Made by a program: the position numbers and the translations under genes. Below, piece by piece: positions 13,501 through 34,848 of a DNA stretch of 64,000 bases (position 1 is the first letter of the stretch; the number at the start of each line of letters is the position of its first letter). Under the pieces are notes generated by a model that ran no database searches, was not told the DNA's origin, and worked only from the letters and a program-made list of their open reading frames with translations. The stretch is from Bryoerythrophyllum caledonicum (Eukaryota > Streptophyta > Bryopsida > Pottiales > Pottiaceae), in assembly GCA_963971425.1 (NCBI GenBank), contig OZ020514.1, forward strand, positions 23,967,406-24,031,405. Direction: 5' to 3'.

Positions 13501-13704
13501 TATTAAATATATATATGCTCACAATTAAAAAATGAAATAATATTGCCCAATGAAAAAAAATAGTATTCGACGATCGGTTCAAGTGGGTAGCTTAAAGCCC
13601 GGGCCTCGGCACTAGCGCAACGGAGACTGCCACGACAACTTTCAAGTTGAATTTGAACGGTACAAACCATACATGTAGTACAAATTGTACCAAAGACAAA
13701 TTGT

Positions 13705-13775
13705 TCCCGACAATACATGGGACGTTTCCGACAATACATGGGATGTTTACGGCAATACATGGGACACAATATAGG
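13705..13775. repeat. Short tandem repeat, about three 22-bp units
   Basis: The sequence repeats CCGACAATACATGGGACGTTT with small changes three times (…GACGTTT, …GATGTTT, …GACACAA). The units lie in tandem just outside the left end of element A. Confidence 0.7.
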
Positions 13776-13929: not shown

Positions 13930-13959
13930 TATCCACCCCAATTCTTCTTGGATCTTTTA
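13930..13959 (-). pseudogene. Detached 3' end of gene X
   Basis: On the minus strand this short piece, including one TTTT target-duplication copy (AAAA on this strand), reads in frame as the end of gene X. If element A (13,960-31,930) and one TTTT copy are removed, the sequence at 31,935 and above joins to this piece as KKKSKRSKKNWGG followed by TAG at 13,930-13,932. This is an inference from reading-frame continuity. It also supports the 4-bp target duplication. Confidence 0.65.
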
Positions 13960-13988
13960 ACACCATATTCGTTATATTGGGAGATTTA
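13960..13988 (+). repeat. Left terminal inverted repeat of element A
   Basis: Begins AACACCATATTCGTTATA, continues TTGGGAGATTT, and is preceded by TTTT. It is the inverted partner of 31,902-31,930 and is also found at both ends of the MITE at 33,951-34,354. Confidence 0.9.
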
Positions 13989-14457
13989 GCGACTCCCAAA
14001 TTAACACATGTAGATCATAAGAGCTAAAGTGCACATCTAAACTCTATAATATGGAGGGATATGAGTTTCCATTAAATTGAGAGGTAATGTTTTCTACAAA
14101 AACCCCTAGAAAAATAAGTACTACGGATAACATTACATTACGAATCTAACTATAATATTGAAAAGAAGAACACATTAGTTGACACTTCTTTTATACCACA
14201 TGTGTTCATTGAATATGAATAGCTAAATATTCACACTCGATCCTACTAACCCGGATTAACACCATGCTCCAATTTAGCTAAAAGTGAGCTAAATGACGGA
14301 CAAATATCCACTTGTAAGAGAATTAGCTAAATACATTTTGATGACCCTTTTTTATTTAAAAGAATTTCAATTCTCCTTGTGGAATACACATTGGCAAAAA
14401 ATATGTATAACGAGTTTCAAATGATGGTGCTCAGAAGTGGAAAAAAAATTGCACACA

Positions 14458-14640
14458 CTACCTCTCTTCGAACTAAAGTGTCCCCATCACTTAGAGGTGC
14501 AAGGAACTCAAAAAGGCAATTCCACACACTTTAGCTCCACTTGACCTAGAGTGCGCACCATTACTAAGTACACTGAACTAAATAAGAAGAGTTGCTCACA
14601 CTTTAGCTCCACTAGAGCTAAAGTGCGACTCAACATTTAC
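14458..14640. repeat. Repeat block with CACCATCACTAAGTG and palindromic arms
   Basis: Contains ACACTTTAGCTCCACTAGAG followed by CTAAAGTGCG, a variant of the element's palindrome, alternating with GCACCATTACTAAGTACA. Related blocks lie at 20,345-20,610 and 22,178-22,285. All are inside element A. Confidence 0.65.
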
Positions 14641-14943
14641 TTTCTATCATTCACCATGAAGGCAATTACTGGTATTATTGGTTTCAAGACTAGAAGCAAT
14701 TTACCACATTCTTATTTTAAAAAGAAAATAAAACATGCTGCAAATTATCATCGATACACAAAAACAATGGAGAGAATATTTCATAGCAATCATTGGCATC
14801 ACATATTATAGTCATACAAAGTGTAAATTAATCAAATACAAATATCTATAATCTCAGCACCAATGGATCTAACCATACTACATGAAGTATTACGCATCAG
14901 AATCTAAAATCTAGGAAAAGGAAACTCCATTTATCTAAGTCTA

Positions 14944-17776
14944 TTACGATTTGGACCAGGCAAGTGCTTCCAAGGAGGCCTTGATAATTGCTACTTGTCC
15001 CTTCGGAATTTTTGTAGTTGAATCTTGCACATGACCTCCATCCCTCTTTGAAGACCTAGGTTTCCATGCTGTCAAGATTGAATCGATACTCTCCCACGTT
15101 ATGACTATCCCCTTTTCAAATGTCCAGCGAAGGTTGCAATCTGTATCCCAATCTTTAAAGAACTTCAAAACATCCCAATCACGCGATATAGGGCGGAAGA
15201 ATTGGATACGCACGGTGTTTGGCATATCCGGTTTAGAATTAGGATCTGAAACTGCTTGAGCAATCCAAAATGGGCGCTCGTCCCCATCACAAGGCCGCAA
15301 TGCAACAAAATAGCCATCAAAAAGATCACGACCAACTCTAAAAGAAGGAGGTGGACGATCGCGTCTATGGCCAACAAAAGGCTCATCTTCACGGTACTCC
15401 TCGGGAACCTCACCCTCCGTTGAGAACTCATCTTCAATGGCATGGGCAATTCGCGTCGATGGCCAAAAGCCGTCTTTCAATGATATTGGCATATCCATTG
15501 GAATTATCAAAGCATCTCTAACATCGCGCCAAAAATACGATAGCGGCTCAAAACGCGAACGGGCTTCAACAGACTCCCGCGATGATTGCTCCCAGTGATC
15601 GATGAATCCTGAAAGTCCCTTCACGACTTCATGGAGATGCCGCATCGTAGAAGGCTTCAATGCATCAGGTTCTCCGCGAGGCCATAAAGACCTCCCTTCA
15701 GAATCCTCCTTCCACAATTTGATGCCACTACCTTCTCCTCCCTTAGGAAGCCAATCCTCATCATGGCAAAGGATTTTATACTTCATTACCGGACAACCAC
15801 TTGAGTCCACATTAAACTTGAACTGATGAGCCTTCGTATGACCCTGCAAAGCTTCATCACCGTCCGCAATCATATCTCCAATGAACTTCTTAAAGTCAGG
15901 AACCTCTTAAATGAGATGTGGGATTGTGGGAACACTCTCATTTTTCATAAACGACCTCATGAGCAAAGAAATGGTTGGAAAACTCTCCTTCCTCAGTGTC
16001 ATACTCCAACGTCCAAATAATGCATCTATATCATCATGTGTATGACCAACTAGCAAAAAATTAACGTATACCTCGCGGAAGATGCGTTTTGCAACAAGGA
16101 CAGACCAAAAACAGAAAACAAATCTATTTTTGTTATCACCAACTGCATTGTCCATTTGCACGTTCAATATTGGTGGCAAAGACCTCCCTGGAACTAGGAT
16201 ATCTGGAATCTGCCCTAATGGATCCAAACACATCTTCGCACCTTGTAATACCGCCGCATACAATGGATGAGAACCAGATTCTGGAAAGAGTTGTCGGGAC
16301 GATGACTTCGGAGGCGCCTCCAGGTCACGCAATAGTTTTGCAAACGACCCGACCGTGTAATTGGCATCATGGGAGTATAAATCAAGGCCGTAATGGGTGT
16401 AACGTTGGTCCACATGACCATGGGCAAGCATGCCTGTGATTGCAAGAGGCAACTTCATAAGCCCATCTAAGTGCTTTGTTTTATGTGAAAAAACTGGGGA
16501 GGCGGTCTTTGAGTGATCCATCTTATCATACATGATGGTAAGAACCTCCTCGGGTGACGACTTTGATTGGAATCGGTTCAGGTAGTACAAGTCCCGATGT
16601 GAGAAAGCAGAATCGATGTGAACCTGCATCTTCTTTTGCCATAGCAGTGATGCTTGTGTTCTAGGTTGAGTAGGCTTCTTCTGATCCTGGTAATTATCAC
16701 AAATAGAACAACGGGCAAAGTTGTCTCCACCTTTCTTGGCATAGTACTCAGGGAAGCTCACTCGCCGAATCTTACTCAAGCTTGAGGTTGAGATTGGCGG
16801 CAATCCACAATCAACGAGATGATCATCAAGAAGCGGTATCTGATCCTTCCACTTAAAACTTGCAGGTAAGACCTTTGCCACAACCTTCTCGCCAGATGGG
16901 AGAACACGAGACTTGTGAGGCATGTGGTTCGCATGTCTATCGAGAATGGCTCCAAGAGCGACAGTAGCCACAACCGTATGACCTCTAGGCTTGCGCAAAC
17001 CGGTATTCCCGTGGTGTTGAGCGGCATGACCAGCGGCAGCGTCCTTCACATTCCGATAGAAAGTACTCGAACTTACACCCATGATTTTCATCCAGGCATG
17101 GGCACAAACGTCCAAACCCTCTAGGGTCACAACCTTCCTACCCGCAACGTTTCTATGAAACTGTCTGTGAACGTCGAGTTTGATATGATTTCTGAACTGC
17201 ACAATGGTCTCAGTGTACAAGCGAGTCTGAAGGACATTGTATTTTGTCTCTAGAGTAGTGTTGAACACAGTTTTTACTGCAACAACTATTGCTCGCAACA
17301 GCGTTAATGGAAACAAGGGTCATGAGGAATTCAACATTCCTGGACACTGTTGGACGTGTATTCCTTGAGGAATTGTCGTACGAACAGGAGCTCCCACCTA
17401 GAGGTCTCTTACGCTCAACCAACCAGACATTGTAAACGTCCCTAAGGCAATGATGGAAGAGACTCACGCCGTTTAAGAAGACTTGTTGAATAGGCCAGGA
17501 CTTAAACGAGTACCTCCACTCATCAGGAGCTTCCTCCAGAACAAAAGTACTAGACACATGTACTACAACATTAGAATCCCCAAGAGGACCAGAGGAACCT
17601 AGAAGTGCACTGGACTGGACATTGCAAACCAACCCCTCCGCAACGCGAACACCCGAACCATTGTGAAGCGAAACAATCATCCCGACCCAGCGACGGCGAG
17701 GAATAACATCAAACTCAGGAAGGTCTGGGTTCACGGGAGCGTCAACATGAACATCGTCGCCCTCCGAAGACGACAT
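14944..17776 (-). pseudogene. DUF7869-type protein, probable transposase of element A (nearly intact)
   Basis: Starting at ATG 17,774-17,776 (MSSSEGDD), the reading covers about 944 codons to TAA at 14,944. It has two visible lesions: a frameshift near 17,225-17,250 and an in-frame TAA at 15,907-15,909. Just before the frameshift is CCSKNC, a likely zinc ligand set, and further on CSICDNY. Three acidic clusters then follow: MYDKMDHSK, QMDNAVGDNKNRF and GHTHDDIDALF. These match the conserved spine of DUF7869 proteins and would suit an RNase-H-like DDE nuclease, though that role is inferred. The C-terminal ~300 residues contain FEPLSYFWRDVRDALI and RPPPSFRVGRDLFDGYFVAL, also present in element B. 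The gene is oriented away from the cargo gene, across a shared spacer. Base composition is GC-richer than its surroundings. Confidence 0.75.
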
Positions 17777-17884
17777 CCTGCATTCCAATGAGATAAATAT
17801 TAAATAACCCTGACAAATTTGATTGGGAAAATATCTTGTAGGAATAGACATCAATGAAGAAGCATAGGAAGAGGGTAATTAATC

Positions 17885-18278
17885 TCGAATCGAGGTAAGG
17901 TCTGGCGCTTAAAAATAACTATGATTCAAGTGAGTTGACATTGTAAACCAGGCAAATTTAGCTCGACTCGAGGTAAACTCATGCGGTATTTTATGACAAG
18001 TATAAAATTTCATGCGATTAGTTATATTCCGAATATGAAATTATCTCACCCTAGTCAGTGACAATTAAGCCCGATCCAGCCTAAATTAATGACTATCAGA
18101 CTCATTGTCATTTTATCTCGAGTCGAGGTAAATAGAAATAGAATATAAGGTATGATAGTTTAGCTCGACTCGAGCTAAACAGTAGATACATTATAGTATC
18201 ACAGTATGGCTCGACTCGAGCTAAACTATCTTACCTTCTTTCGAGGGACAGTTTAGCTCGACTTGAGCTAAACTGTCC
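17885..18278. repeat. Palindrome cluster upstream of the DUF7869 gene
   Basis: At least five copies of the palindrome lie within 400 bp of the probable promoter. A perfect 23-bp copy is at 18,158-18,180. A shorter perfect core is at 18,209-18,221. A 33-bp copy with one mismatch is at 18,246-18,278. Decayed ones lie near 17,885, 17,955 and 18,117. The half-site is TTTAGCTCGA with a central C. Confidence 0.85.
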
Positions 18279-18888
18279 TTCCGTGATTCTCGGCGTCTTT
18301 TTAGGGATTCATAAGGTAAAACTCTTCAGCCTGTGAATCTGACTCTTAGTGTACCACAACCCAAATCTTTCTGTCAATCGTCAAGAAACTCGCAGTGATG
18401 CTTCAAAATCACAGTAGCAACTGGAACCACCGCAATAACCCTACACACTGTCACATCCTAATTGCTAGAGACTGTGCACGGAGAATGCAAGAAGTATACA
18501 TTATGTACCTTATGAAGAAGACAACTGATGCGTTGTTGCCTGGCGCAAGCGCCCTGCTCAACCGTGCGCAACCTATAGATGTTACCCTCCTCAACCTCCG
18601 ACAGTTGTTCAACCTCCAAGCCTCTCCACAACAACCTTGCACAGCAACCAAAGTGAGAAGGAAAGAAATGAAGAAAGTTTTTGAGGATCGGCGAGGTCAC
18701 TCACAGACACACGACCGTTTCAGAATTGGCGGGAGGAAACTTCACAATTGGCGGGGGGACTTTTCCACAGCCCCTAAAAAAGTGCAAATTCGAAATCTTA
18801 GCGGGAAACAGAATCAACTATTTCCTGGCTGACTAAAATAAGGAAGAGTACATACCTCGAATCTACTCGCACATGCGAGTTATATACA

Positions 18889-19020
18889 AGGTTTTAGGGT
18901 AATGCTCAAGGTTTGGATTAGGGTTAGGTTTAGGGTTTAGGATTAGGGTTTTTAGGGTTTGGTTTTAGAGTTTAGGATTTGGTATTTAGGGTCAGGTTTA
19001 GGGTTCACGGTTTAGGGTCC
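18889..19020. repeat. Interstitial telomere-like / telo-box array
   Basis: Degenerate TTTAGGG units (TTAGGGTTAGGTTTAGGG, TTTAGGATTAGGG and others) cover about 130 bp, roughly 1.1 kb upstream of the DUF7869 start. On the gene's own strand these read AAACCCTAA, the plant telo-box. An equivalent block sits at the same relative place in element B (39,228-39,325), so it belongs to the element and is not a chromosome-end scar. Confidence 0.8.
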
Positions 19021-21720
19021 TTCGTTTATGTGTTATCTTCTAACGTCATTTCATTTCAATATAATAATACTTTGAAGATTCAAGATATTTGCCAATTCAA
19101 CTAAGGTTTAGGGAAATGTAGAGAAGATACTGAGATGACTAGAAATAAATTGTATTACAATCCAAATAGGAGTTATCTATTATGTTGAAATCAAAGACCT
19201 TAACAAACGAGTAGCATTCACCAAACAAAAAAAACATGTTATATGTGCACGTGTATTTTTAGCCAAAAAGTATGTATTCAAACATGCTTTGGACATCATT
19301 TCTTTGGGGTTTTAAAAAAGTGCATCATGTTACTATTTTGTCATCAATTTAGAATGTGCATTCTTTGGCAAGAATCCCAAGTGTCCCCATGGTCTGAATT
19401 TCAAATTGAAATTGCTTACTATCCACTTAGAGGTACTCAAAGACTTGAAATGTGCGCAAACTAATATTTGGATTAAAATATCTTATATTTGAGTTCACAT
19501 TGTATTATCATGAGTTTAGGGTGTGGCAATCTAAGCATGACATGAAAGATGGAAGAATTCTTGTCCATACACAATTTATTTCATGTTTTGACGTGAAATT
19601 AAAGACTTTGTCATTTGTAAAACAAAGAGAGTGGAACAATATTAAAAGATTTAAACAAAATATGGAGAGACCTCCTCATGACAAAAAAAGGATAATCAAA
19701 ATATAAAATATAACTAATACAAAGTGTATCACTTAGTGCATCAGGCATAATTTAATGTTCGTAATGTAAGTAATTTTGAATTTATTTATACATGCAAAAA
19801 AGGAATAATTAGTTTTTGAGCACATTCTAGTGGTCGCAAATTATATTTGAAATTCTCAAAATTTTGTAGAAGGATGATAAAAGTCATGAGGCATAATTAT
19901 TAGTAATTTATTTTCTCAATGAACGTCTTCAATTAAAGTTATGCGAGCCAAAAGAGAAACTTCTCGATTGCCGGCACGTCGAGCAACCTAAAAAACGTTT
20001 TGCTATGACACAGTATGGAATGAGATATTTTCAATACATAGAAGTAATATTAGAACGAACTATATTGTCGAAAAACATGTTATTTTTCTAGTGAAAAACA
20101 AGACTACATCCCAATTCATACATTTTCACACATTGTCACATATTATTGATTTAGGGTACCAAGAATACTTAGACTTCATATCCACTGAAGGCTAGGGGAT
20201 TATTATATTTTTTTGCTTTTTAATTTTACTATTGGAGATTTAGGTCCACATATTTTGAAAATCCTTTTAAAATTCAAAGGATTACTTTTTCACTTGTAAA
20301 ATACTTAACCATAAAGAGAAGTACGGAGTTCAAAATGATTGTTTGAAGAAGTGGAAATACACATTGCACATACATCAGCTCAGTTTTTAGCAGAGGTGTG
20401 CACCATCACTACGTGCAATGACTAAAAGGAAGGTGTGGACACACTTTAGCTCCACTGGTGCTAACATGTGCCTCATCACTAGGTGCAGTGAACTAAAAAG
20501 AAAATATGCACAGTTTAGCTCTACTAGCTCTAAATTGTGCACCATCACTAAATGGAGTAGATTAGAAAGCAAAAATGCACTATGTAGCTCCAGTATACAG
20601 AAGATAGCTTCTAGAGAAGTGGACACTAAGTAGGAATCCATACAATAATTGTAAAATGTACAATAAGTGTAGTGACAAAACTATACATCACCCAATGTCA
20701 ACTACCACTCTAAATGTCAATCCTAGTAAATAGTGGAACATAAAGTTTTTTACTTGTGGACAATTAGTTTAGGAAACCTTAATCATGGTTTGATTACATC
20801 TTGAGCATCATAGTAAAGAAGGGTTGAGTGCATGTAGAAAAACAAGAATTTGCAAGAAAGAGCTTGGGAATAATCGGACGTAGGTACGGAGCAAACAAAA
20901 AATATCAAAAATTGGACAAAGTAGAATATAAAATATGGAGGGAAAATGAAACAACAAGTAGAAAATTGGAAATATAAGAACATTCTGCTGGAAACGAAAA
21001 TGAGTAAAGAAAGGAATATTCGAAAAGGAAAAAACTTAAACATACAACAAATATAGAAATACAAGTAAAATACTCATTAGATATCCATCACATATTATGC
21101 ATTCAATGTGCAATACATATTCAGTAAATATTCATTAAGTACTTATTGAATATTCAAATACACATTAATTTTACATTAGAAATTTATGCACTATTCATTA
21201 ACTAATCATTAAGAGTGCATTAAATACTCTATAAATAATCATTAAATATACAAATATTAATTAAACTATCATAAAATATACTTTTAAAACTTCAAACATT
21301 CATTAAGTAAAATTTAAATATTCTTTAATTGTGCATAAAAGTTACAGATATACAAATATACATGAATTATCCTATAAAAAATCATAACAAAGTCATTAGT
21401 TATTGGCTAATTATATGATTACACATTAAATATTCATTAGATAATATTAAAATATATTTAAAAAATGCAAGAGATGGGAATGAGAATAGTTGTGGATAAG
21501 ACAATAAGAAATTGAGGTTGAAGATGAGGCGAAGAATAAATGCATGGCCTTCGGTAGTCAAAACATATTGAGCTTATACAATTTATCAAGTATCAAAATT
21601 GTGTGCTAGGGAAGAGTTTTGATAGAGGGCTATTACAAAATGAATTCTAGTAGGTGAACAAATGAGGGATAATATTCAGGACAATGGTGGCTAAAACTAG
21701 TTTTCAACTTGTTGACAAAT
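19021..21720. other. AT-rich spacer of element A, no gene
   Basis: Very AT-rich, with TTAAATATTCATTA-like low-complexity runs at 21,060-21,480. Open stretches are short and have no domain. A repeat block with palindromic arms lies at 20,345-20,610 (TTTAGCTCCACTGGTGCTAA and CACCATCACTAGGTGCAGTG). Confidence 0.55.
20345..20610. repeat. Repeat block with CACCATCACTA and palindromic arms
   Basis: Two to three imperfect units, each with CACACTTTAGCTCCACT-like arms and GTGCACCATCACTAAATG spacers. Related to 14,458-14,640 and 22,178-22,285. Confidence 0.65.
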
Positions 21721-21726
21721 AGTGTA

Positions 21727-22130
21727 CTAGAAAAAGAGAATCTCCACCGGGGCCGAGGGACCGGGATGCAAGAATAAACACGGTAAAGCCCACTCCGTGA
21801 GGCCTAGTCCGGTGTCTCGGTTCACTGGAGTGGCGGCGACGGTTCTTCTAAACAATAAATTTACAAATAGTACAGGGAGACCAAAATTCCCCGGGAGCAT
21901 GTGTTCAATCATGTAATTACACGAGGGAATTAAAGAAAATCAATAAACACCCCAAAAAAAATCAGCCTACTAAAGCGTTAGTGTTGGGCGCTGGCGTTCC
22001 CTCACAGTGGCCAATTCGGGGACGGTGCGGGGGGAAAAGGGTAACCTCCCTCCCTTCATCTCAAACTTGGGCACCTTCCCGCAGGCGTGGAAAATTCTCC
22101 GTCAGGGGTGGAGATGCTGTAACTACTGGA
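21727..22130. other. GC-rich island of unknown origin inside the AT-rich spacer
   Basis: A sharp change in composition: CTCCACCGGGGCCGAGGGAC, GGTGTCTCGGTTCACTGGAG, GACGGTGCGGGGGGAAAAGG. No open frame is convincing. It could be a fragment of another element, such as an LTR or non-coding RNA gene. I cannot assign it. Confidence 0.4.
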
Positions 22131-22177
22131 TTTGTACCGTTAGAGTAAAAGAAAAATGAAGTGAAAAGTAAAGAAAA

Positions 22178-22285
22178 AATTCACACTTTAGCTCTATTAG
22201 AGCTAAAGTGTGCACCATCACTAAGTGTAGGGAACTAAAAAGGAAGTATGCACACTTTAGCTCCAATATACAATTTCAAGATGTG
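22178..22285. repeat. Repeat block with CACCATCACTAAGTG and palindromic arms
   Basis: CACACTTTAGCTCTATTAGA followed by GCTAAAGTGTG forms a palindrome. GCACCATCACTAAGTGTAGG and a half palindrome (CACACTTTAGCTCC) follow. Third member of the block family in element A. Confidence 0.65.
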
Positions 22286-22859
22286 GTCTTAACATACTTA
22301 TTGTCTGTTCGATTTTCATAGTAAATAATATCAAACTCATAAAAAATCAAAACGTGAATTGAACGTAATAGAATTTTAAAATCGTAGCTTTAGAACTCTC
22401 TTAAGTGTGCTTCACCTAATAATTGGTGTAGGAGGAACTTATATACATCGATGGTAATGAATTTACTCCTTGTGTAATGCAGAAATTGAAATCGAGTCAA
22501 GTGAAAGCAAGCTGATCCACTAAAACCATGAAAGAAAACTAAACACTAAAATCCTGTTTCTAAGACTAATATATATTCGTTCACTTCCGTCCAATCCAAG
22601 TTTGTGTATTATTGAGAAAATGCTAATTTAGAAGTTTTAATTGAGATCATACGAATGAAATTGGAAATAATCACTTTTCTTTTGCTACCTGTTCGTTGCC
22701 CGAGAATATGCAAAATTGTAGTGTTAATGGCCTAGAAAAAATGTGTAGGAAATTTACGATTACAAAAATACTACACGCGCGTAATATCTTGAACTTGTTC
22801 TAGAAAGATTAAATTGGCTTCTTGAAACTCCGGGTATCAATAATGAAGGTGAATGAATT

Positions 22860-23561
22860 GTGGTGCATCCATCTGTAATACCCGAGGGTCTCACCCGAAT
22901 ATCACGAAGGGTATCCCGAGGGTATCTCGGGAGCACCACACGGCCACAGGGTTTCGACCTTCACGGCATTAGGTGCCCTCGAGAGTACCCCACAAAAACG
23001 TGGCGCTCGGCTTTTCTCTTCCCTTTTCGTTGCTGTCCAGGTTTTGTGTGTGTGTTGAGTTGTTGTTTTTTGAGTCTTGTGCATTTATGCGTTGATTCGT
23101 CGTTGCGAGTTTGCGGTTCGTGTTGCTTTCGTTATCTACAGGGTTTGTTAAGTTTGTGTATTCTGTAGCGCTGCGTTTAGGCTTTCGTGCGCAATTTACT
23201 GGAGGTTAGGGTTTCCTGCGGATAGGGTTTGTTGGACGTGCGATTTTTTGTTGTGAGAGTTCGCGTATACTGTAACGCTAGAGTTTAGGGTTGTTTGTGT
23301 GAGATTGTTTGAGTTTCTATGAGTTTGTGAGAGTTTGTGTGAGTTTCTGTGAGTTCGTGTGAGTTTCTGTGAGTTTCTGAGAGTTTCTATGAGTTTCCGA
23401 GAGTTTCTGTGAGTTTCTGTGAGTGTGAGTTTTTGTGAGTTCCTGTGAGTGTGTGTGAGTTTCTGTGAACACGTAGAGTCTAAAACGGCCCTACGCGGAG
23501 GATTGACGTGAACAAAGAACAAGATTGCAGCTATTTCATTCGAATTTCTCAGTTTCCTAAG
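22860..23561 (+). promoter_or_regulatory. Probable promoter and non-coding first exon of the rightward gene
   Basis: A CpG-rich stretch with telo-box-like TAGGGTTT motifs at about 23,207, 23,223 and 23,284 is followed by a GTGAGTTTCT tandem repeat and by a strong donor-like AAG/GTGAGT at 23,561/23,562. A matching acceptor (TTGTTGTTGCAG) ends at 23,949. The same order, TG-rich leader then donor then short exon with ATG, occurs in element B. The transcription start cannot be placed. Confidence 0.5.
23296..23466 (+). repeat. GTGAGTTTCT tandem repeat in the leader
   Basis: About fifteen imperfect 10-bp units (GTGAGTTTCT, GAGAGTTTCT, ATGAGTTTCC). Roughly ten contain GTGAGT, the consensus plant 5' splice-site hexamer, and the array lies about 100 bp upstream of the probable real donor. 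Confidence 0.75.
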
Positions 23562-23693
23562 GTGAGTGCACATATTCAGTCTTGCATTTCTTTCGATATT
23601 TGTGTAGTTTTGCTTTAGATATGATGTATTGAAACATTATGATAGCATTGCTTTTGATGTATGTGTGAGAAAATAGATGAGATTGTGTATTCA

Positions 23694-23915
23694 ATGTGCT
23701 GGTTTGAATGTGGTGGTTTGTGGTGGTTTGTGCTAGTTTAAATGTGCTGGTTTGTGCTAGTTTAGATGTGCACATTGAGGTCAATGGTGTGGTTTCAATT
23801 GCTAAATTCAATGTGCTGAATTCAATGTGTTAATTTCATTGTGCTCATTTCAAAGTGCTGATTTCATTGTGAATGATTTCAATGTGCTGGTTTCCATGTG
23901 CTACTGTGATTGATT
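23694..23915 (+). repeat. AATGTGCTGGTTT-like tandem repeats in intron 1
   Basis: Imperfect repeats of TTTGTGCTAGTTTA and TTCAATGTGCTGATTTC fill the first proposed intron (23,562-23,949). Confidence 0.65.
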
Positions 23916-24110
23916 TTGTGTGTGTGTGGGTTTGTTATTGTTGTTGCAGGACGTTTAGTTCCAGCAGAATTTGTCTGGGATTAAGGTTCATAATCAATGG
24001 CTGAAAGGTAAAATCCATGCTCTCACCCAGGAGCCCTAAACCCTACGCCTTCAATATCAAAGATCGAAAGAAGAATCTGCACAACCTCTCTCCAGCATGC
24101 TCCTTTGGCT

Positions 24111-25065
24111 ACACTTTAACTCAACTCGAGGTAAAGTGTGACCAACAAAGCACGCTGGAGAGCACACTTTAGCTCGACTCGAGCTAAAGTGTGGACAATA
24201 GTGCACAATGGACGCCCACTTACGCTTGAGTTTAGCTTAAATGTACGACTAAATACATCTTTGGTTGCGCTAAAGCCGGCTCCAGAGAAAGAAATTAAAA
24301 AAAATTGGAGGTCTTTACCGGTCAAAAATGTCATGACCTTCCAATAAAGCCAGCCCACTTTACCTCGAATCGAGCTAAAGTGTAAGACAATAAACATAAA
24401 CAACAACTCAAACACAACAACATTCGGACTCTAAACATTCCAGAAATATAGTATACCAATGATAATTATGACTTAACTCATGTCAACTTCTCTTTCACCT
24501 TTCACAAGTAGGCAAGAGCTTCAGACGTGCTCCAACCACTTGAGAACCTCGATGAGTGAGGTTCGTGAGTGATTAGAGCGGAACAAAAGCTCTTCCACAG
24601 TTCTGAAAATTGGACGAGAAGTAGCCATGAATTGAATCAAATAGTCTAGTAAAGTCGTATGAATGATCAATGTTAGTGTCAGAACCACTCAGCTATGCAT
24701 TCTATGTATAAGCACTTTAGCTCGAGTCGAGCTAAAGATGTAGCTAACGCTTGATTACAGCATTGTTACAGTCGTGTAGTTGTAGTCTAGTCTCTCAACT
24801 CATGTCTATTTTTCGTTCACCTCTCATTAATTGTGCATGAGCTTCAGTCCCGCTCCAACCACTTGAGAACCTCTAAGAGTGAGGTTCGTGAGTGATTGGA
24901 TCGGTTCGTAAGCTTTTCCACGGTTTTGGGAGTTGAACGAGAAGTAGGCATGAGTTGATTGAAAGGGTCTAAGAGAATGTTCTAATTGACTAAATTTTGT
25001 TGCAGAGTATTATTCACATACTTGTATAAAGTTACACTTTAGCTCGAGTCGAGCTAAAGTGTGAC
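24111..25065. repeat. Palindrome cluster in intron 2 of the cargo gene
   Basis: Copies of the element palindrome: 24,163-24,193 (31 bp, perfect), 24,715-24,737 (23 bp, perfect), 25,031-25,065 (35 bp, one mismatch), with decayed copies at 24,111-24,140 and 24,356-24,382. The central base is C in the first and G in the next two. All lie between donor 24,008 and acceptor 25,132. Confidence 0.85.
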
Positions 25066-26603
25066 CTTGCCATCCTAATCGGATGATCAATAGAACAATC
25101 TAATATCTTTGCTCTGTTTCGTGTTTTTGCAGATCTTAGAGGAACATGATGGTGTCTCAGCTGCAGCACTTCTTCCAGCCAAAGCCTGTCGACGTTGACG
25201 ATGACGATGGAGACGACAACAACCACTTGGATTGCTGGGAGCTGAAGGACCTATCGATGACACTGAAGTGGACGCTTCTGTGGGCGACCTATACGGATCA
25301 TTTAGTGTTTGGTTAGACCTTCGTTGGTTCTATCGTCGATCCCCAGCACATCGACTTCAAGACCAAAATTACTAATGTAGTCCACGAAGATAACGATCAC
25401 GTTAAGTTGTCGTGTGAGACGACCACTCAGTCCTTAGATCCGTATTTCTTTACTATTATAGTGAACAATAGTTCATCTCCCTTCTGTATCTAGGATTTAG
25501 TCGATTCTCTTAGGTCTTCCAAATTTGAGGAAATAGTGACTCAGGTCGAGCATGAGATCTCTCTTAAGAAATGGCAGACTAATAGCGGACAGCCGCTGAA
25601 AGCAAAGGCTACAGCTAATAAACTGCGCGTCATTCTATCTTGAATGAGTACCTTTGCCGCTCTAGATAAGGCCAAAAATATCGCAGTAAGACGCCCAATA
25701 GAACTTTCAACGGTTTTGGGGGCCGTGACCGGTAGCCAGGACATGAGTCAAGCGTCGGTACCGGTTAGAACTCCACATGCGAGAACAAGCCGAAGCACCC
25801 TGCGCAACACGCTGTCTGCTTCCCCCGCCAAGAAGTGCTCAGCTGCCAAGAAGCCGGAGACCTCTTCAAGAAAGAAGTCGAAGCTCGTATCAGAGGAGGA
25901 GTTAGCCAATTCGATGGCCTCTGCACTCTCGGAGCTCCCTAAGGCTCTCGAATACGGAGCGACAATCCACTACAACAACGTCCAACAGATTTACCAAAAA
26001 TTCTGGACGGAGTGTCAGAGCTGCTTCTTCAAAGGCGACAGAGAGATGAAGATCGAGCTTGACGTGATGAGGTTGCATAATGCACCGTCGGAGTGGACGA
26101 TCCGTGCGTTTGAACCTCGGGGCATGGAGGAATTGAAGCATTACAACCTCCAAATGCCCGACAAGACGTAGAAGCAGACTCTCTGCGTCATGCCGAAGCT
26201 CGATGCTATGCCGACGACTGTTGAGGAGCTCAGCAACTGCGACTTCTACATCATCAACGGCCAGCACAACGTTGCTGCTTCAAAAGAGATGATTAACGGC
26301 AACGTCCCAGAGGTGATGAGAAGGCACTTCTGAACATGGCAATGTTACATTGTCTGGACGCAGGATCCGGAGAAGCTGAAGAAGATTTCCGCGTATTATA
26401 ATCGCGTGAATCACTTGGTCCAGTTCAAGCCGACCTGGGCAACGAATATCCTCGGCTCCCGTGCTTTGTTGATCCAAGCTGGGAGACCAATGCCAAAGCA
26501 CTCCGCCACAAGCGTTCGCGGGTCTCACAAGTCAGGTCGGAGAACGGTAGCGGAGATTGCAAATGACAAGAGGTTTGAGGTAATATATCTTAACCAAGGT
26601 CAT

Positions 26604-26728
26604 GCACTTTAGCTCGACTCGAGCTAAAGTGCAAATTTTCTCTATATCTGTTCAGCCATATGTACAGATAAAAAATCGCCATTGTCTGCTCATGGGTTGC
26701 AAGTTAGCTCGAGTCGAGCTAACTTGCA
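26604..26728. repeat. Two perfect palindromes in intron 3 of the cargo gene
   Basis: 26,604-26,632 is a perfect 29-bp palindrome with GCAC/GTGC outer arms. 26,698-26,728 is a perfect 31-bp palindrome whose outer arms are different (TGCAAG/CTTGCA) yet fully paired. The intron runs 26,580-26,806. Confidence 0.9.
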
Positions 26729-27884
26729 GTATTTGGACCCTACTGGACTTTTTTATATTCCTGCTTTAAATGTAAACTCAAACAACCCTTTTTATGTTCT
26801 ACACAGCCATTTCTTAACGCGGTTCGTGAGCGCTTCGCAATGATCGACGTTGCGAAGAGCCAGGCGGCGCTCAAGAAAGCCGGGAAGGCGAAATTACGAA
26901 CGAGGTGAAGTCATCACCGCAAAAGATGAGACCTTCAAGCTGTGGTCGGACGCCATCTCTTCTGCGGCGCATGGCGACCTCATCAACGTAGATTCGACTT
27001 CGACGCCCTTGGCAAAGTTCAAGGACGCGAAGTCTTGGGTACCTGAGAAGGATGGGGTCCTGACGCGCGAGTTCTTCAAGTTCCTTGGCAACATGACCAA
27101 AGCCGATCACGCGAAAATGTGCAAGCACATTCTCAATCGATCAGGGCCATCTCGGAAACTGCCCTATCCTAAGGTGGTTATCAAGCTGCCGAATTCTGCG
27201 CTGGAGGATTGCTATACAGCCCGGGACTGGGTGGATCGGAGGAAGAAGAAGGAGGTCACTCGGATAGAGCTTCAACTGATCAGGCCAGAGCTAGCCTTCT
27301 TCAGCAGCACTGGAGCATACAGACGTTCAAACTGGCGGACGTTCAAGAAAAACTACAACGTCAGCAAGGCCTCAAAGCGTGCCCTCTTGGATTGGCGTCC
27401 ACCGGATTCATACTACAAGGATTCGAGGTAGACGCAGTTTCACCCTCCCCTCACCGATCTTCCAGCCTGGCTCTTCATTTGCGGCAACGAGCAGTCACAC
27501 CTTCAAGTGACAACGTTTGCTGAGGGCCCGTCCTTGTGCCATGCATACGATGTGCTGCAGTCGAAGTATCTTCCCTCCGAGAACGAGCCCCTGGGAGGAT
27601 ACGCGCCAAAGACCAACAACGCTCTCGACCCGGTTCGGCTCCACTCCTCTTCAAGAAGGAGCTTACGGTGATCCCGGCCGTAAAGAAGATCTACGCAGCA
27701 CCAAAGCATGTGTTGTACACGAAGCTGCGGAAGTACAACGAGTTGGCGTACTCCATGAATTTGAACGAACTGAGGATGGAGTTCTTCATGAAGGTCCTGG
27801 AGCTGTTCTGCAAGAGGGGGGATTCTATTGTCCAGCTGTTTGGCGGGACGAAATTACTCACTGAGAGTGTGGTAAGCATCCCTG

Positions 27885-28125
27885 CAGTTTAGCTCGAGTC
27901 GAGCTAAACTGTTGATACCCTTTCTGACTCGTGCATAGTTTCAATGAGGTCATGTTGATGTTGTTGCGTGACACTTTAGCTCGAGTCGAGCTGAAGTGTC
28001 AGCTCTTACTTGTATGATTTTCTAGAAGTCATTTACTGCGTTCGTATCCTTTGAAGTTGTAATAGCTGAGTTTTCGTACCAGCAATTGTTTGTATTAAGT
28101 TTAGCTCGACTCGACCTAAATTGAA
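27885..28125. repeat. Three palindromes in intron 4 of the cargo gene
   Basis: 27,885-27,911 (27 bp, perfect, CAG/CTG arms), 27,970-28,000 (31 bp, one mismatch that would be a G-U pair in RNA) and a decayed copy near 28,097-28,123. The intron runs 27,872-28,150. Confidence 0.85.
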
Positions 28126-29206
28126 TCTTATTCAATGCATTGGTGTGCAGATGCTGGACCTGGAGGCATTCTGCATTTCCCACGACACCGATGAGCAGGA
28201 CCTCGACGACGCCTTTGAGGTCGCCTTGACGTTGGATCGGGCCGATTTCGATATTTCTGCGTATCACGTCAACGCGGAGATCTTCCCCGAGCTTGGAGAG
28301 GCCGTTGGAAAGGGGAAAGGGAAAGCCATTGTTGACCTCGGCGATGAGGAGGAAGATGCGGAGCCGAGTGCTGTGGTTGCGTGCCCGATCTCGAGCACCG
28401 TCACTCCGGATAATGAGTCCCAGGACGATTTCGTTGACGCTACTCCAACTGAGTTTCAGAGTGCCTCTCAATCTGAAGCAAGAGACACAATCGCTTCCTC
28501 GCGACAACGACTCGACTTCCCGGAGTTGGATTCGTTGCAGATTTCCGACAGGCCTCATTCAGCTCCCACCTTGGGCGCTCCAACCGCTCGTCCCACGGCC
28601 AAGAAGAGGAAGGTCGCCAGCGCGAGCGGACGCTCTCTGTTGGCTATCGCGAGGAGCACTCAGGATGACAACATGTTGATCTCCCTTGAGAAGAAGCTCG
28701 AAGAAAAGGCCACCCAGATGAGGTTGATGGAGCAGCGGCTGGCGGAGCGCGACGAGGAGCTCAGGGATCTGCAACGGAGGCGTGACGATGAAATGAAGAG
28801 GGACCAAGATCAGAGGCATGCCGAGATGATGCTCATGATGCAGAGATTCATGTCGGCTAATTTGCCTGCTGCCGCCACAACACCGCCCGTAGTTAATGTT
28901 GCGATCCCCCAAACTCCCGCCTCACGGGACGGCGGGTCTGGGAGTCCATCTCCCGATTTGCAGCTGCCATCTCCGTCGGGTACCTCCCCCGTCTCCAGTG
29001 GGGCTCAATTGCTTCATGTTCTCCCATCCTCGTCGGCCCGCCCCTCCTCCCCTCCACATTCGCCCGATCGGGACGAATCTATCGCAAATGTCCCAGGTCG
29101 TCGTCAAGTTAGTGTAACGTAGTTGCGAGTGTATAGAGGCAGAACATTTTGTAAATATCCAATTTTGTACTCCAGTATTTTTTTGTTAATATTATAGTGC
29201 ACGTCG

Positions 29207-29237
29207 AGCACTTCAGCTCGACTCGAGCTAAACTGCT
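29207..29237. repeat. Palindrome in intron 5 of the cargo gene
   Basis: A 31-bp copy with two mismatches (AGCACTTCAGCTCGA, central C, TCGAGCTAAACTGCT) between the coiled-coil exon and the next exon. A weaker relative lies just after the gene at about 30,553-30,582. Confidence 0.75.
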
Positions 29238-29730
29238 TGACATCTGACGACTCTGACTTATATCCGTGTCCTCTGTGCGCATCCGCTGATAGGGTGAAGT
29301 TGTTGAATTTTTTCAGATCTAAGTTTCGGTGATGACGCGATTGCTCAACCAGTCATAGAAGAGGTCGTCCAAACTGCAGTCCCAGTCATAGAAGAGGTCG
29401 TCCAAGTTTCAGCCGTGCTCGCAGACGAGATCAATCATGATTCTGTTGTCCTGGAGCCACCTCTTCTTGTCCCAGAACTGCGCCCCCAATCGGATGTCGG
29501 GCACTCCGGGCCCCTTGATAGCATGCAGGGTTCGTTGGGATCGATGGGTGCCCGAGACGAAATGCTGCAGGACGATGAAGTTCTCGAGGTATTCTTCTAA
29601 CTCTTTTCAACTCCACTCTTTCCCCATCACTCCTCCTTCCATTTACCTCTTTCGTTCTACGTATTGTTGATTCGTCGTTGTTAATGAATCTGTAGTAATA
29701 TTGTTCGTTCTCCTGACGTTTCCAAACCAG

Positions 29731-30525
29731 GTCGGCGAGGCATCAATAAGTGGTGCCACTAATCTAGAAGAAATACCTAGAGTCCAATCAGATATCGAGG
29801 GCAGGTGGTTGAATATTGTGCTGGACCTCAATGGGATTCTATGAACGTGTGAGCCGTCGTGGCAGGCCAGAGGATCCAGGAACTCTATCCCGTCCATCCA
29901 CTCGGCTTCGCTGCCGGCCGAAGTAGGCCCTAAAGTAGTTCGAGTGCGCTCTGGTTGTGCTGAATTCCTTACGCAGTTGTCTAAGATTGCCACCATCACG
30001 ATCTGGAGTTTGATGATGGAATCTACAACGCGCCAGATATGTAATTATTTTTTTCAGCATAGTTCTTCGTACCCTCTCAGGGTCTTTGGTCAGGAGAGTT
30101 GCGATAGGATTCCCAAGCGTAGACTCACTAGCAGAACAATCTACATGAAGGAATCTGGCACTCAGAAGGACATCTTCTTGAAGACCTTATCGAGCCATCT
30201 CTTCAATAGGTTGGGTCGTGAGTATACTCCGGCAAATATGCTTGTCATTGACGACAGCCCGATTAAGCACATGCTCAATTTGCCGGAGAATGTCCTTCTT
30301 CATCCATCATGGTCGCACAAACATGTTGGCGCGACAGACGATTCTGTATTGTTGGAGGAATTGCTGCCATATCTCTCTGACCTTCATCAGTTTTTGCGTG
30401 GCCTAGTACAATACCGGGCCAAACATCCCTTTGGTCGGGAGATGTTTTATAATGATCAGAAGACGTGTGGTGAGTCTGCGAGTATCTGGAACGCAATCCA
30501 AGCGTCTCAGAATCTCCGCTCTTAA
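29731..30525 (+). pseudogene. FCP1/HAD phosphatase-like domain, last exon of the cargo gene
   Basis: The exon begins after an acceptor at 29,730. It encodes LNIVLDLNGIL (HAD motif I, with the first Asp present but the usual second Asp replaced by Asn, as in many plant FCP1-like proteins). A TGA at 29,842-29,844 follows at once. Then come VRVRSGCAEFLTQLSKIATI, TIWSLMMESTTRQI, MLVIDDSPIKHM (motif with the paired Asp) and LRGLVQYRAKHPFG. This order is characteristic of NLI-interacting-factor/FCP1 domains. The stop codon (TAA) is at the same place as TGA in element B, which suggests the true C-terminus. Apart from the single TGA the exon is open. Such domains dephosphorylate proteins such as the RNA polymerase II tail; activity here is doubtful. 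Confidence 0.75.
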
Positions 30526-30903
30526 TGCCGTTGGGAACGCTTAGATGCCTTTTACACTTTAGGTCGGATAGAGCTAAACTGTATCGATTGACTACAGCTT
30601 CGATTTTGTAAATTTTGTTGGACCATTTTTTGTGTATATTTTTTTATAAATGAAACTGAGATGTTTCACCGCTTTGTTGTTGTGGGGATTAGATACCTAC
30701 TGGTGATGGAATGCCGTGCTATTTTGAATGATTGGAATTTTCATCTATTGTTCTAAGGTATGTGAGTGTCGTAGTGGTTGAAATTTCTACAGGACTGTGA
30801 CTGTGGGGCGTCCGTGGATTCCTTCCTAGGCCCAGAGGAGTTCGCCCTTTCTCTTTGGAGTAAAGGGCTTTTGTTGCACTCTGCTGCAACCGCGCAATCA
30901 ACC

Positions 30904-31640
30904 ATGGATTATTCGACCATGGCAGTGGATGACGGAGTTGTTGAAAGCCCTATTGCGCGGGAGCCAATTCATGAAAGGAACAACTCACCTTCGCCGCAGT
31001 GGCCTCGTTTAGTTCCTGGGTCCCCGCCTTTAAATCCGGATAATTGTACTCCAGCAAAGCATATTCTCTACGATAGTTTAAGGGATGGTACTTCCCAACG
31101 CTCGCTTGCGGTGCGTGTTATGATGACCTCCAATTTATTGCACTATTGAGATGTTTTGGCCTAGACAATTTTGGTTTGTTGTTGAGCTACGTTGCACTAA
31201 TGTAGTTTTGGTTCATTTGAGCTTTTTTTTTGTTGGAGGTTAAATGTGCTCTGTGGATCTTTCCTTCTGCATTTTAGCTCCATTCGACCTAATGTGCGCT
31301 AGGATGGATCTCAATGATTAAATTTTCATGTGTGTTGTGTAGGAGTATTCGACCTAAAGTGTATTTCTTTGGATTGTGTGTGGGGCCTATTGTGTAGGAA
31401 CCATCCAGTAAATGTCTCCGTCCCCGAACTCTCTCAGGAAATGCTACTAGAGGCAAATGCTCTCCTTCCTCCACCCGCCGGCACTCGCTGCCCAAATCAA
31501 ACAGTGACGAGGTGCGTAGGCGGGGTTTGCAGCGTCTTCTAGAGAGTCCATTAATGCAAGAGAATGGCGCAACATGGACAAGGCAACGTCAGAGGGCTTT
31601 TTTGAAGACGCGTATAGAGGCTTATGGTGGAACTCTGTAG
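30904..31640 (+). CDS. Small spliced protein of element A, unrecognised, intact
   Basis: Two exons join in phase: 30,904-31,110 (from ATG, MDYSTMAVDD) and 31,398-31,640 (ending TAG). They give 149 residues without a stop. The intron has GT at 31,111 and a TGTAG acceptor ending at 31,397. The open frame extends upstream to an acceptor at 30,792, and that part is also conserved with element B (VDS.L and ALSL.SK), so a further 5' exon is likely and the start is uncertain. The C-terminus is basic (LLESPLMQENGATWTRQRQR) and conserved in B at 49,179-50,096. I do not recognise a domain. It lies just downstream of the FCP1-like exon and is the only protein gene in the element that appears unbroken. 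Confidence 0.5.
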
Positions 31641-31901
31641 ACCATTTGATTAGTGATAGGACGATTGTGTTTTGCCTCGGGGTGAATGAGTGTTGTTTGT
31701 GATTTTTTTCATGAAGTTTTAAATAAAGCTTGGAAAATGGTACATGCTTCTTTTATCGTTACCATTTTTTGGGACATTTGGCTAATTTGGTCCATCCATG
31801 TAATGAAATATAGTATTGTTGGTGCATTGTCGATATGCTTTGCACCTACAATTGTCTATATATATTGATACTTTAAAGATCATATATCTTCAAAATCATG
31901 G

Positions 31902-31930
31902 AAATCTCCCATTATAACGAATATGGTGTT
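31902..31930 (-). repeat. Right terminal inverted repeat of element A
   Basis: AAATCTCCCATTATAACGAA followed by TATGGTGTT, the inverted partner of the left end, and followed by the TTTT target duplication. Confidence 0.9.
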
Positions 31931-31934
31931 TTTT

Positions 31935-34848
31935 GCTTTTCTTCTTTGCTTCCTCTGCCTCCATAACTTCAGCGGCAATCTCACTTCAAGTCTTTTGTTT
32001 TGCTCGATATTTAGCATCAATCAGAGATAGAAGAGGTAGAGGTGGCGCCATCATCACTGCCCTGGACAACTCTATATGTTTTGATGCCTCAGTTTTGAAT
32101 TCTAACTCAACATCCTCTACTCTCAATTTTTTGAGGCGCTCTAATACTGCAGCTTCTTGCCTCAACTTCCAAAGTCTTTCAAACTCTGCAGCTTCTTCTC
32201 TTAACTTCTGTATACGTTCTTCAAGCTTCATTTCTACAGTACCATTCATGGACGGTTCCCCAAGGTCAAACCTCGATAGCCTCTACGACAGTAATTGTTA
32301 TCCCATCATTGCCAACACCCACATTTGTCTTGTTGCCAACATCCACCTTTGTTTTGTCGGGGGAGTCTACTTCGTCTATAGATGTAAGACCCGGATGTGA
32401 TTGTGTTTGCAATTGGTGCCTTGAAACTTGAATCATATGTTCATGACTTCCAACTACGCTATTATTTCCTAGGCTCTGTATTCCACAGCTCCCACTACAG
32501 CTAATCTCTAAACCAGCATTGTCCATGATGATTGTTTCATTTGCGCTTTGAGTCCATGTGCATACTGTGGATTGGGCCATTTGATATTGATAAATTTTTT
32601 CAGGATCTCTACTAATGTAAGACAAGGCAATTAGTTCTCTATGCCTCAAAAACTGACAATTGCATATAAATATATACAATGTACACATCATAGTAGACTC
32701 ACTTTAAACATTTTGTACAAATGATGTACACGGAACATACGTTAAATACCATATTAGTACAATTTATACTCTTCATACAAATTGTGTATATAAAACATAT
32801 GTAAACATTCAACTACCTCAAACAAGTAAAGAGCAGTAGGATAAAGAACATACCGATGTCTAGATGTGAGTTCAATATACTCAATGTCAAGTTGGCTAGG
32901 AGACTATGTTGTTTCTTCTCCAACTCTAAAGTTTCTACAAGTTGTCGAAGAGGTGTAGGCAGTTGTTCGAATCTGAAACTACAAAACCAAGACAAATGCA
33001 CTGATGTGCCACAACTTACATCTGCACATGTGCTAGCCACTCTAAACCAAAGAGCTGCGCACCATGGATGATATCAATGCCCACAAGTACTAACTACAAT
33101 GTTGTTTAAAGGGAAATGGTTGAAGCAAAGCGCACAAGGTTGCATCGATGTTGAGTTAGACTTCGATGTTGCCTTCGAATCAAATAGGGAGCAATGGGGA
33201 GTAGGTCTCATAGCAATACCAACTTCTCCTCTCTCCATATGAGTAGGAGCAACAAAGCATCAAATTGCCTCCTCAAATAAGTTTGCATAGCTAGAAGCTC
33301 TTCGTACCTTATATTACATCCCTTTAGCTCTAACACAACACCTTTCCTAATCCATCTTGGCGTCATTGAGCATCTCTCGGTACGCCTCTTCCTTCTTAGA
33401 AAGGTTTTGTTCATCTGCTCGAATTGTACATCATGCACACCATGTACATTGCGTACACAATGAATCTTTTGCATCTTGACAATTTTTTCCTCAATTCAGC
33501 GGAGGACCCCTTTTTCATGGGATACAGTATTCAACAAATCAGCTTTCTTTTGGTTGATAGAGATGTAGTCCACCGTCAGAACGTGAAGTTGGAATCCCAC
33601 TAACTTGATCAACTTAAACAGGTCTTTTAAATTCTTATCAATTTCTGGACTACACTATTGGACAGGAACCTCCTCTTCCTTCACTACGTTCAAAACTTTT
33701 GGAACTTCAAAAGTCCTAGCAGTAGGATCATGAAACAACTCATCAATCCCTTCAAGTACAAAGAGTTTATCCTCCGTTTTGCCTGTGAGTTGCTCTCAAG
33801 CCCTCAAAGATATCTTCACCTTCTTTAACCATTTTCTTCTTTGGCTTTTGTTACAGGCCGCAGCAAACTCCACCCAACTCACAAGTTTCTTCTTTTTCAA
33901 CTCCATGACAATCCCCCTAGCATATTGCTTAGCTATAACCTTGGACTTGGAACACCATATTCGTTATAATGGGAAAATTCCATAATTTTGGGAAAACATA
34001 GTTAAGGTCGAGTCGACTTAAATTGTATCCACAGATTGAGTACTTCACTGAAACTGGACAAAACAATCAATCGTTGAAATATTCAAATGGCCACAACTTA
34101 CTCAAATTTTGTTCAAATTCGGCATATGAGGTGTTTTGGAACATCTACAGAAAGATTAGATGTCAAATAACACCTCATATGCTCAATTTGGGCAAAATTT
34201 GAGTAAGTTATGGCCATTTAAATATTTTGACGATTGGTTGCTTTGTCCAATTTCAGTGAAGTACCCAATCTGTGGGTACAAGTTAGGTCGACTCGACCTA
34301 AACTGTCATTAAATTGGGAGATCGGAAATCTCCCAAAATAATGAATACGGTGTTTTGGGCAGATCTCTCAAATAAACCAAGGGAAAAACCTCATTAATGT
34401 CGGTTAAGACTTTCTGGTCCTTACAATCTCCGTAATGATAATCAACTTTCCCCTTCCTTTTCTTTGGTGGCCCAAAATCATCAGTTACCTCTTTGTCCTG
34501 GATGTCAACTAGAGGTCGCAACTTGTGTGGATTTTTTCCTTTCTTGGGGAGCCCACATTTTGTCTCAAAATCTTCTTCGGTGATGGCGCATGGAGGAAGA
34601 TGGCTCTTTAGAGACGTCAACTTCTCAACTTCCTTTTCCAAAGCACTCTTCTTCACCTTGTAATCAGTAAAGCCTTCTGCATGTGATCTAGCAAGCAGAG
34701 ATTCAAGGAGATCATCATCGTAGTCATAGTCACTTATACGTTCATCTTCTCTAGAGAAGGTCGTAGAAGGGTCATTTTCTCTGGAGAAGGTTCTGCTCTA
34801 AATCGACCAATCATCTGCTTCAAATTCGGACCCATATGCAAAATCCAT
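31935..34848 (-). pseudogene. Gene X: unrecognised multi-exon gene split by element A and a MITE
   Basis: From ATG at 34,846-34,848 (MDFAYGSEFEADDW) the minus strand reads an acidic start, ISDYDYDDDLLESLLARSHA, then KKSALEKEVEKL and GPPKKRKGKVDYHYGD. The frame enters the MITE at 34,354. If the MITE and one TTGG copy are removed, it continues as DLPKSKVIAKQYARGIVME. Later pieces are 33,208-33,474, 32,266-32,691 (SYISRDPEKIYQYQMAQS) and a coiled-coil-like 31,986-32,249 (EERIQKLREEAAEFERL), then EIAAEVMEAEEAKKKSK up to the element A boundary. The final codons are at 13,930-13,959. Introns probably lie around 32,700-33,150. Stops near 34,800 and at 31,986 show it is dead. I do not recognise the family; it may be a host gene or the gene of another element. 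Confidence 0.5.
33951..34354. mobile_element. 404-bp foldback MITE with element A termini
   Basis: Both ends match the element A inverted repeats (AACACCATATTCGTTATA and, at the right, AATGAATACGGTGTT). Flanks are TTGG at 33,947-33,950 and 34,355-34,358, a 4-bp target duplication. Nearly the whole element is one inverted repeat: about 190-bp arms (for example GGCCACAACTTACTCAAA against its complement near 34,190) with a short centre near 34,145-34,175. Each arm carries a variant of the element palindrome (TTAGGTCGA, C or G, TCGACCTAA) at about 34,003-34,025 and 34,283-34,303. Removing it restores the gene X reading frame. It is non-coding and would depend on a transposase acting on element A ends. 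Confidence 0.9.

Follow-up and report, generated by a model that had tools for sequence, protein, structure and literature searches.

A stretch of 64,000 nucleotides from contig OZ020514.1 of the plant Bryoerythrophyllum caledonicum (hereafter the window) carries a DNA element of 17,972 bp, which is bounded by 29-bp terminal inverted repeats (TIR; 28 of 29 positions identical, one mismatch) and flanked on both sides by TTTT, as the original prediction, made from the letters of this stretch alone, had noticed. The two arms diverge, also as described there. The left arm harbours a DUF7869-type gene on the minus strand and the right arm a series of plus-strand coding segments that includes a CTD-phosphatase-like NIF domain, and both are accompanied by an array of palindromes. 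The location of these features is given in Table 1. The element has AACACC termini, and the 18-bp end occurs four times in the window with 0 to 3 mismatches, against 0.10 expected from shuffles; two of these occurrences are the ends of a 404-bp miniature inverted-repeat transposable element (MITE) of the same family, to which the original prediction had not referred. To the left of the element, copies of a CGACAATACATGGGA-like unit were seen by eye to follow one another in a short tandem array at 13700-13765.

Copies, target duplications and an empty site

A search of the host genome (437,360,962 bases in 894 contigs) detected 688 exact copies of the 18-bp end, 331 in forward and 357 in reverse orientation, and none of the same end read backwards. 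From 100 of these 688 places, all on one contig, 20 end pairs were picked by orientation and spacing, 10 of which were retrieved whole and 10 as ends only; with the window copy this makes 21 pairs. Two of them (E3 and L058/L059) were left out of the count of target-site duplications (TSD) because each joins two copies of the same end. Of the 19 pairs with opposite ends, window copy included, 17 are flanked by a perfect 4-bp TSD and none is identical over 5-8 bp, while 10,000 random re-pairings gave a mean of 0.99 matching pairs with a maximum of 8. The bases of the 17 perfect target sites (A 25, T 32, C 8, G 3) indicate A/T-rich targets with no fixed word. Perfect 4-bp duplications were also found for all five MITEs having both ends, namely that of the window and four others from a sample of eight loci (L022-L029), the remaining four of which were not counted.

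The ten whole copies share segments of 67-98% identity with the window copy. In nine, these run from end to end and in the same order, apart from gaps, the tenth (E3) matching in its right-arm part only; the transposase and the right-arm gene lie on opposite strands in 10 of the 11 copies, E3 having no transposase. The element thus belongs to a multi-copy family of ca. 16-20-kb TIR DNA transposons in this plant, which duplicate 4 bp of their target.

One copy, E7, has inserted within another DUF7869 gene. When its flanks are joined and one 4-bp repeat is removed, the translation matches a DUF7869 protein without gaps over 72 residues that span the joint (44% identity, E 2e-18), so that the single empty site that can be inferred agrees with the proposed ends. 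The joined flanks of the other ten copies, the window copy among them, have no match to the collected proteins. For the window copy, the original prediction had pointed to a gene whose frame would continue once the element is removed. The frames that cross this joint are 49, 184, 59, 26, 47 and 22 residues long, and the one of 184 residues has 155 of them on one side; continuity at this site is weak and was not confirmed, and it is on the other copies that the 4-bp duplication stands.

Several further observations were made on the ends. The open reading frames (ORF) of E3 are mirrored between its two halves and the flanks of L058/L059 are mirror images, which would be accounted for by either an inverted duplication or an assembly fold-back. 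Five end pairs located ca. 28-37 kb apart (L060-L069) likewise have perfect 4-bp duplications, for which reason they may be elements with nested insertions. Finally, a 17-mer of the TIR was found in viral contigs at 21 loci with one exact match each; none of these has a convincing partner end or a relative of the element proteins collected at that time, and they were taken as chance.

The probable transposase and the right-arm gene

With Pfam thresholds relaxed to E 0.1, DUF7869 was the sole family matched by the three ORFs of the window transposase. A protein search further detected 288 relatives among 8000 candidates scored; among the matches listed (120 of the 288) the best reaches 82% identity, and the one named organism is the moss Physcomitrium patens (A9U683, 57% identity). 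In an alignment of 41 sequences, a CxxC...H...H cluster precedes a D...D...D triad composed of D420 (40/41), D542 (37/39) and D584 (37/37), with D417 (38/41) as an alternative first Asp. In a low-confidence AlphaFold2 model, three strands (411-415, 536-542 and 568-574) precede a helix that starts at 581; this order reads as RNase H-like. Between ten copies the transposase has a median ratio of nonsynonymous to synonymous substitution rates (dN/dS) of 0.37, with a range of 0.21-1.10. Triad conservation, together with the modelled strand order, makes it very likely that the DUF7869 protein is the DDD transposase of the element, as had been supposed. A sequence search of PDB with a transposase relative gave no useful match, and DUF7869 peptide patterns had no match in viral contigs.

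In the right arm, a three-base periodicity is found across nine aligned copies, in which exons 1, 2 and 3 meet at splice-like joins that are all in phase 0. Over 36 copy pairs, median dN/dS is 0.21 for each of exons 1 and 2 (0.21-0.23 over all estimates) and 0.37 for the whole of exon 3 (0.27 in its first part). Two small ORFs close to the right end have values of 0.30 and 0.48, and one of the two controls taken from intergenic DNA has 1.01. Based on these alignments, the right arm encodes a multi-domain protein that is probably spliced and is under purifying selection. The motif INGQHSVAAS of exon 1, near invariant in 28 sequences, resembles by eye the DGQHR/ParB type, the sole library match being TIGR03187 (E 0.0085) in one of the 28 alignment members. 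Two stretches noticed by eye in exon 2, GPPDSYY and FGGTK, resemble amino-methyltransferase motifs IV and I in degenerate form and in beta-class order. Splicing of exon 3 to the NIF/CTD-phosphatase-like ORF at the acceptor first chosen resulted in stops in the joined frame.

The large cargo-carrying family of the original prediction is found as a multi-copy TIR family. What the prediction called cargo seems to be an accessory gene proper to the element, not a passenger that it picked up, because it is under purifying selection across copies and because exon 1 has 49 relatives elsewhere. DUF7869 and exon-1 relatives were matched on contigs of the same sizes (87828 and 559682), which suggests that they may be co-located in relatives. 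The database record of one exon-1 relative, P0155, assigns it to a metagenome assembly of an uncultured Leptolyngbya; it is possibly plant DNA in a cyanobacterial bin.

The idea that the right-arm ORFs are separate genes, each with its palindromic promoter, was dropped because the splice signals put these palindromes inside probable phase-0 introns. A gene model with palindromes in introns is itself one reading of the alignments, since the acceptor of intron 1 is lost in three of nine copies.

In the window copy, the transposase frame is interrupted by an in-frame TAA at 15907-15909 and by a frame change near 17240, and exon 2 has lost ca. 300 bp and has broken frames. With both genes broken, this copy could therefore move only in trans. 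An open transposase frame is found in E8 (1039 codons), in which the second Asp is missing, as it also is in E4.

Table 1. Location of the element and its parts in the window (positions are those of the 64,000-nucleotide stretch).
Feature	Position	Strand	Basis
TTTT target-site duplication, left copy	13955..13958		sequence; 4-bp duplications in 17/19 opposite-end pairs
Left TIR on the side of the transposase, running on into ...ATTTAGC	13959..13987	+	sequence
DUF7869 transposase gene (very likely), defective	14944..17776	-	PF25273 E 3.4e-36; 75-82% identity to relatives P0005 and P0006
Six palindromes immediately before the start of the transposase gene on its upstream side, spacing of the last four 46-47 bp	17879..18272		motif scan
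Three scattered palindromic sites (20445, 20514, 22187), central non-coding region	20445..22207		motif scan
Five palindromes preceding the right-arm gene (24115, 24168, 24359, 24716, 25038)	24115..25058		motif scan
Right-arm exon 1 (start approximate), interrupted here	25167..26579	+	dN/dS 0.21-0.23; 49 relatives; INGQHSVAAS in relatives
Probable intron 1, palindromes at 26608 and 26703	26580..26806	+	donor GT 8/9, acceptor AG 6/9 aligned copies
Right-arm exon 2, degenerate DNA-methyltransferase-like motifs (by eye)	26807..27871	+	alignment; dN/dS
Probable intron 2, palindromes at 27888, 27975 and 28100	27872..28150	+	donor GT and acceptor AG 9/9 aligned copies
Right-arm exon 3, coiled-coil/low-complexity by eye (end approximate)	28151..29107	+	alignment; dN/dS
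NIF/CTD-phosphatase-like ORF	29845..30525	+	PF03031 E 7.3e-14; E 4.6e-19 in copy E8; dN/dS 0.44
Small conserved ORF or exon	30775..31149	+	dN/dS 0.30, median of 36 copy pairs
Right TIR on the side of the right-arm gene, running on into ...ATTTCCA	31902..31930	-	sequence
TTTT target-site duplication, right copy	31931..31934		sequence
404-bp MITE, same family	33951..34354	+	TSD TTGG at 33947-33950 and 34355-34358; palindrome 51 bp inside each end

The palindrome array

A 27-bp palindrome (CASTTTAGCTCGASTCGAGCTAAASTG) occurs in 25-36 copies per element in ten copies (E3 being left out). A scan allowing up to 6 mismatches collected 321 sites, from which the family consensus is CA[CG]TTTAGCTCGA[CG]TCGAGCTAAA[GC]TG. 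Independently of any given motif, every one of the 11 copies contains 9-23 strict palindromes (arms of 11, one mismatch), versus 0-3 in ten Markov sequences; the window flanks contain 2 in the 13.9 kb to the left and 6 in the 32 kb to the right. In the window, the density of family palindromes is 1.39 per kb within the element and zero in the 13.96 kb to its left. It amounts to 0.54 per kb for the flanks overall, mostly at 38-45 kb, next to a DUF7869 relic. This relic (37200-38055, minus strand) corresponds to an older related element with DUF7869 pieces of 37-53% identity to three relatives, upstream of which diverged palindromes of the CTCAACTTGAG type are located (38121-38562 and 42579-45021), which matches the arrangement of the younger copies.

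Within the elements, the palindromes form rows upstream of both genes and occur in both probable introns. In E8, none of 35 palindrome centres falls in the five defined coding segments, which make up 39.5% of this copy (p 2e-8 if sites are assumed to be independent, which clustered sites are not); one centre (18035) falls inside a small ORF (17990-18334) that was not counted as an exon. All five MITEs carry a variant of the palindrome 51 bp inside each end.

The array was also detected in relatives of exon 1. Of the 49, 29 extend at least 8 residues past the first splice donor, and in 24 of these the read-through carries a translation of the palindrome, the exceptions being P0138, P0151, P0158, P0167 and P0169. 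Shuffling the tails of the 24 matching relatives produced the motif in 10 of 4800 cases, a comparison in which the motif list was drawn up after the tails had been seen and several of the relatives are close duplicates of one another. The translation is found in frame 0 in 8 relatives, in frame 1 in 12 and in frame 2 in 5 (one has two); since it is read in three frames, what is kept is DNA rather than a peptide. Over the 321 sites, dyad partners covary above the shuffled level at positions 11 (0.65 observed, 0.34 shuffled), 15 (0.57 and 0.27), 14 (0.57 and 0.42) and 2 (0.73 and 0.56). At most inner positions it is the sequence that is conserved, and the pairing of dyad partners does not exceed the shuffled level there.

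A proposed mechanism and the probable relationship to Sola transposons

Taken together, we consider it probable that the locus is a giant Sola-type element with a DUF7869 transposase, at whose palindromes one of its own proteins, that of the right arm or the transposase, would act. The DUF7869 protein would be a cut-and-paste transposase, cleaving the element at its 29-bp ends and integrating it with a stagger of 4 bp. We propose the palindromes as candidate binding sites for a protein encoded by the element, recognition of which would control or mark it. With less assurance, the right-arm protein (DGQHR/ParB-like and methyltransferase-like) or the transposase may bind them as a dimer. Self-recognition, packing or epigenetic marking of the element could follow from such binding, as could control of both genes, whose upstream regions hold the densest rows of palindromes.

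A number of points weigh against this reading. The TSD is imperfect in two of 19 pairs (E9, CGTT/TGTT; L050/L051, TCTG/CTCT). No copy of the 11 has a transposase frame that is both open and complete in its triad, and the transposase model is poor (mean predicted local distance difference test score 56.9, predicted template modelling score 0.36). In the right arm, intron 1 is weaker than intron 2 (acceptor AG in 6/9 copies) and the third donor is GT in 7/9, the second part of exon 3 has a dN/dS of 0.68, and the second intergenic control gave 0.65. Sequence searches of Pfam, PHROGs and PDB made no ParB call at a sound E-value for exon 1; exon 2, whose motifs look degenerate by eye, had no methyltransferase match in Pfam or PHROGs. 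Finally, the Sola label rests on shared traits.

A more specific version, which we hold as tentative, is a parS-like system in which a ParB/DGQHR-type protein fused to a methyltransferase-like fold would load onto the 25-36 palindromes and mark the 18 kb as self, site and protein being kept together across widely diverged elements. The methyltransferase-like fold may have lost catalysis, and from sites in promoters and introns such self-marking might regulate transcription, resist host silencing or aid synapsis of the distant ends. ParB-parS partition systems and phage ParB-methyltransferases are prokaryotic and combine a ParB-type protein with several palindromic sites per replicon. The element would be alike in this combination, with no homology seen beyond a DGQHR-type motif.

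It is less likely that the palindromes are binding sites of the transposase, in the manner of subterminal motifs of plant transposons, the right-arm protein having another role. The subterminal variant in five of five MITEs, which retain the ends alone, and the six sites that precede the transposase gene of the window copy would agree with this, but the sites of the large elements are distributed along the full extent of these, with the highest density upstream of genes and in probable introns and not at the ends. Equally improbable in our view is that the palindromes persist because they form hairpins or cruciforms, whether RNA hairpins, precursors of small RNAs or structures in replication, rather than bind protein, or that they owe their symmetry to template-switch mutation. 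Covariation of dyad partners at four positions favours this explanation, whereas the inner positions are for the most part kept as sequence, as expected of a recognised site.

As to classification, a giant Sola-type (Sola1-like) transposon is inferred from the following traits. According to PMC10741241, Sola elements have a DDD transposase and a 4-bp TSD, TIR of 11-1124 bp and a length of mostly 2-9 kb with some over 15 kb, and are present in Physcomitrella, a "Physcomitrella Sola1" being listed in a table of PMC9033089; Sola1-1_Ec32 of Ectocarpus is a 21.5-kb Sola-1 with a divergent ParB-plus-methyltransferase gene, and ParB-methyltransferase proteins have been proposed to bind and mark their own transposon (PMC12477816). 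The element described here has a 4-bp TSD, a 29-bp TIR and a length of 17,972 bp, a DDD triad as judged from conservation, and, in 10 of 11 copies, a large divergent gene on the strand opposite to the transposase. Since size, duplication, triad and divergent layout match Sola, the earlier statement that no plant superfamily with this layout has been described is unsupported.

The closest counterpart by layout is Sola1-1_Ec32, a giant Sola-type element with a large ParB-like and DNA-methyltransferase gene opposite the transposase. It differs in its brown-alga host, the present element being from a plant. Here, in addition, recognition of the ParB-like and methyltransferase-like domains is weak or by eye, they are followed by further segments of coiled-coil and phosphatase-like type, and the element has a documented palindrome array. 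Palindromes and subterminal motifs are not mentioned in the main text of PMC12477816; the array is apparently new, though it may be in print elsewhere. Sola1 of Physcomitrella patens shares the plant host, the DDD transposase and the 4-bp TSD.

That DUF7869 elements form a superfamily of their own, having just TSD length and size in common with Sola, is rather unlikely. DUF7869 is an unknown family in Pfam, is unmentioned in the literature searched and matched no solved structure by sequence, all of which would fit such a superfamily. Against it, the 4-bp TSD, the DDD transposase and a size above 15 kb coincide with Sola, the Physcomitrium patens protein A9U683 is 57% identical, and the accessory gene occupies the same divergent position as in Sola1-1_Ec32. 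The idea that the two ends belong to unrelated repeats paired by chance or by nesting, not to one element, is refuted, for although two of 21 pairs do join like ends, the copies align with the window copy at 67-98% identity and most pairs have matching TSD.

Several other superfamilies differ in their target duplications or proteins. The TSD is of 3 bp in PIF/Harbinger and 8 bp in hAT; Academ and Chapaev also make short TSD, of 3-4 bp. CACTA/EnSpm elements are large, with 3-bp TSD and CACTA ends, and carry repeated short motifs for an element-encoded protein. The present element is alike in its repeated motifs and large size but has a 4-bp TSD, AACACC ends and motifs spread through its whole length, and CACTA/EnSpm was rejected on TSD and termini. 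Mutator duplicates 7-12 bp and Tc1/Mariner 2 bp, and the transposase of Ginger resembles a Gypsy integrase (PMC10741241). With 4 bp in 17 of 19 pairs and 5-8 bp in none, PIF/Harbinger, hAT, Mutator and Tc1/Mariner were rejected, as was Ginger, Pfam having given solely DUF7869 for the window transposase ORFs.

An unnamed Pfam family, DUF7869, is hereby linked to an actual family of transposons whose ends and target duplication have been measured, which makes other plant DUF7869 genes candidate transposases. Moreover, a palindrome kept in place across divergent elements is a concrete candidate target of the ParB-like accessory proteins of giant Sola elements, so that the published self-marking idea becomes directly testable.

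Other mobile elements have left traces in the window. An ORF with a DUF659 domain, which occurs in hAT-like transposons, is located at 1057-1533 on the plus strand, and fragments of a copia-type long terminal repeat retrotransposon with gag, pre-integrase and SH3-like domains were found at 60754-63079 on the minus strand.

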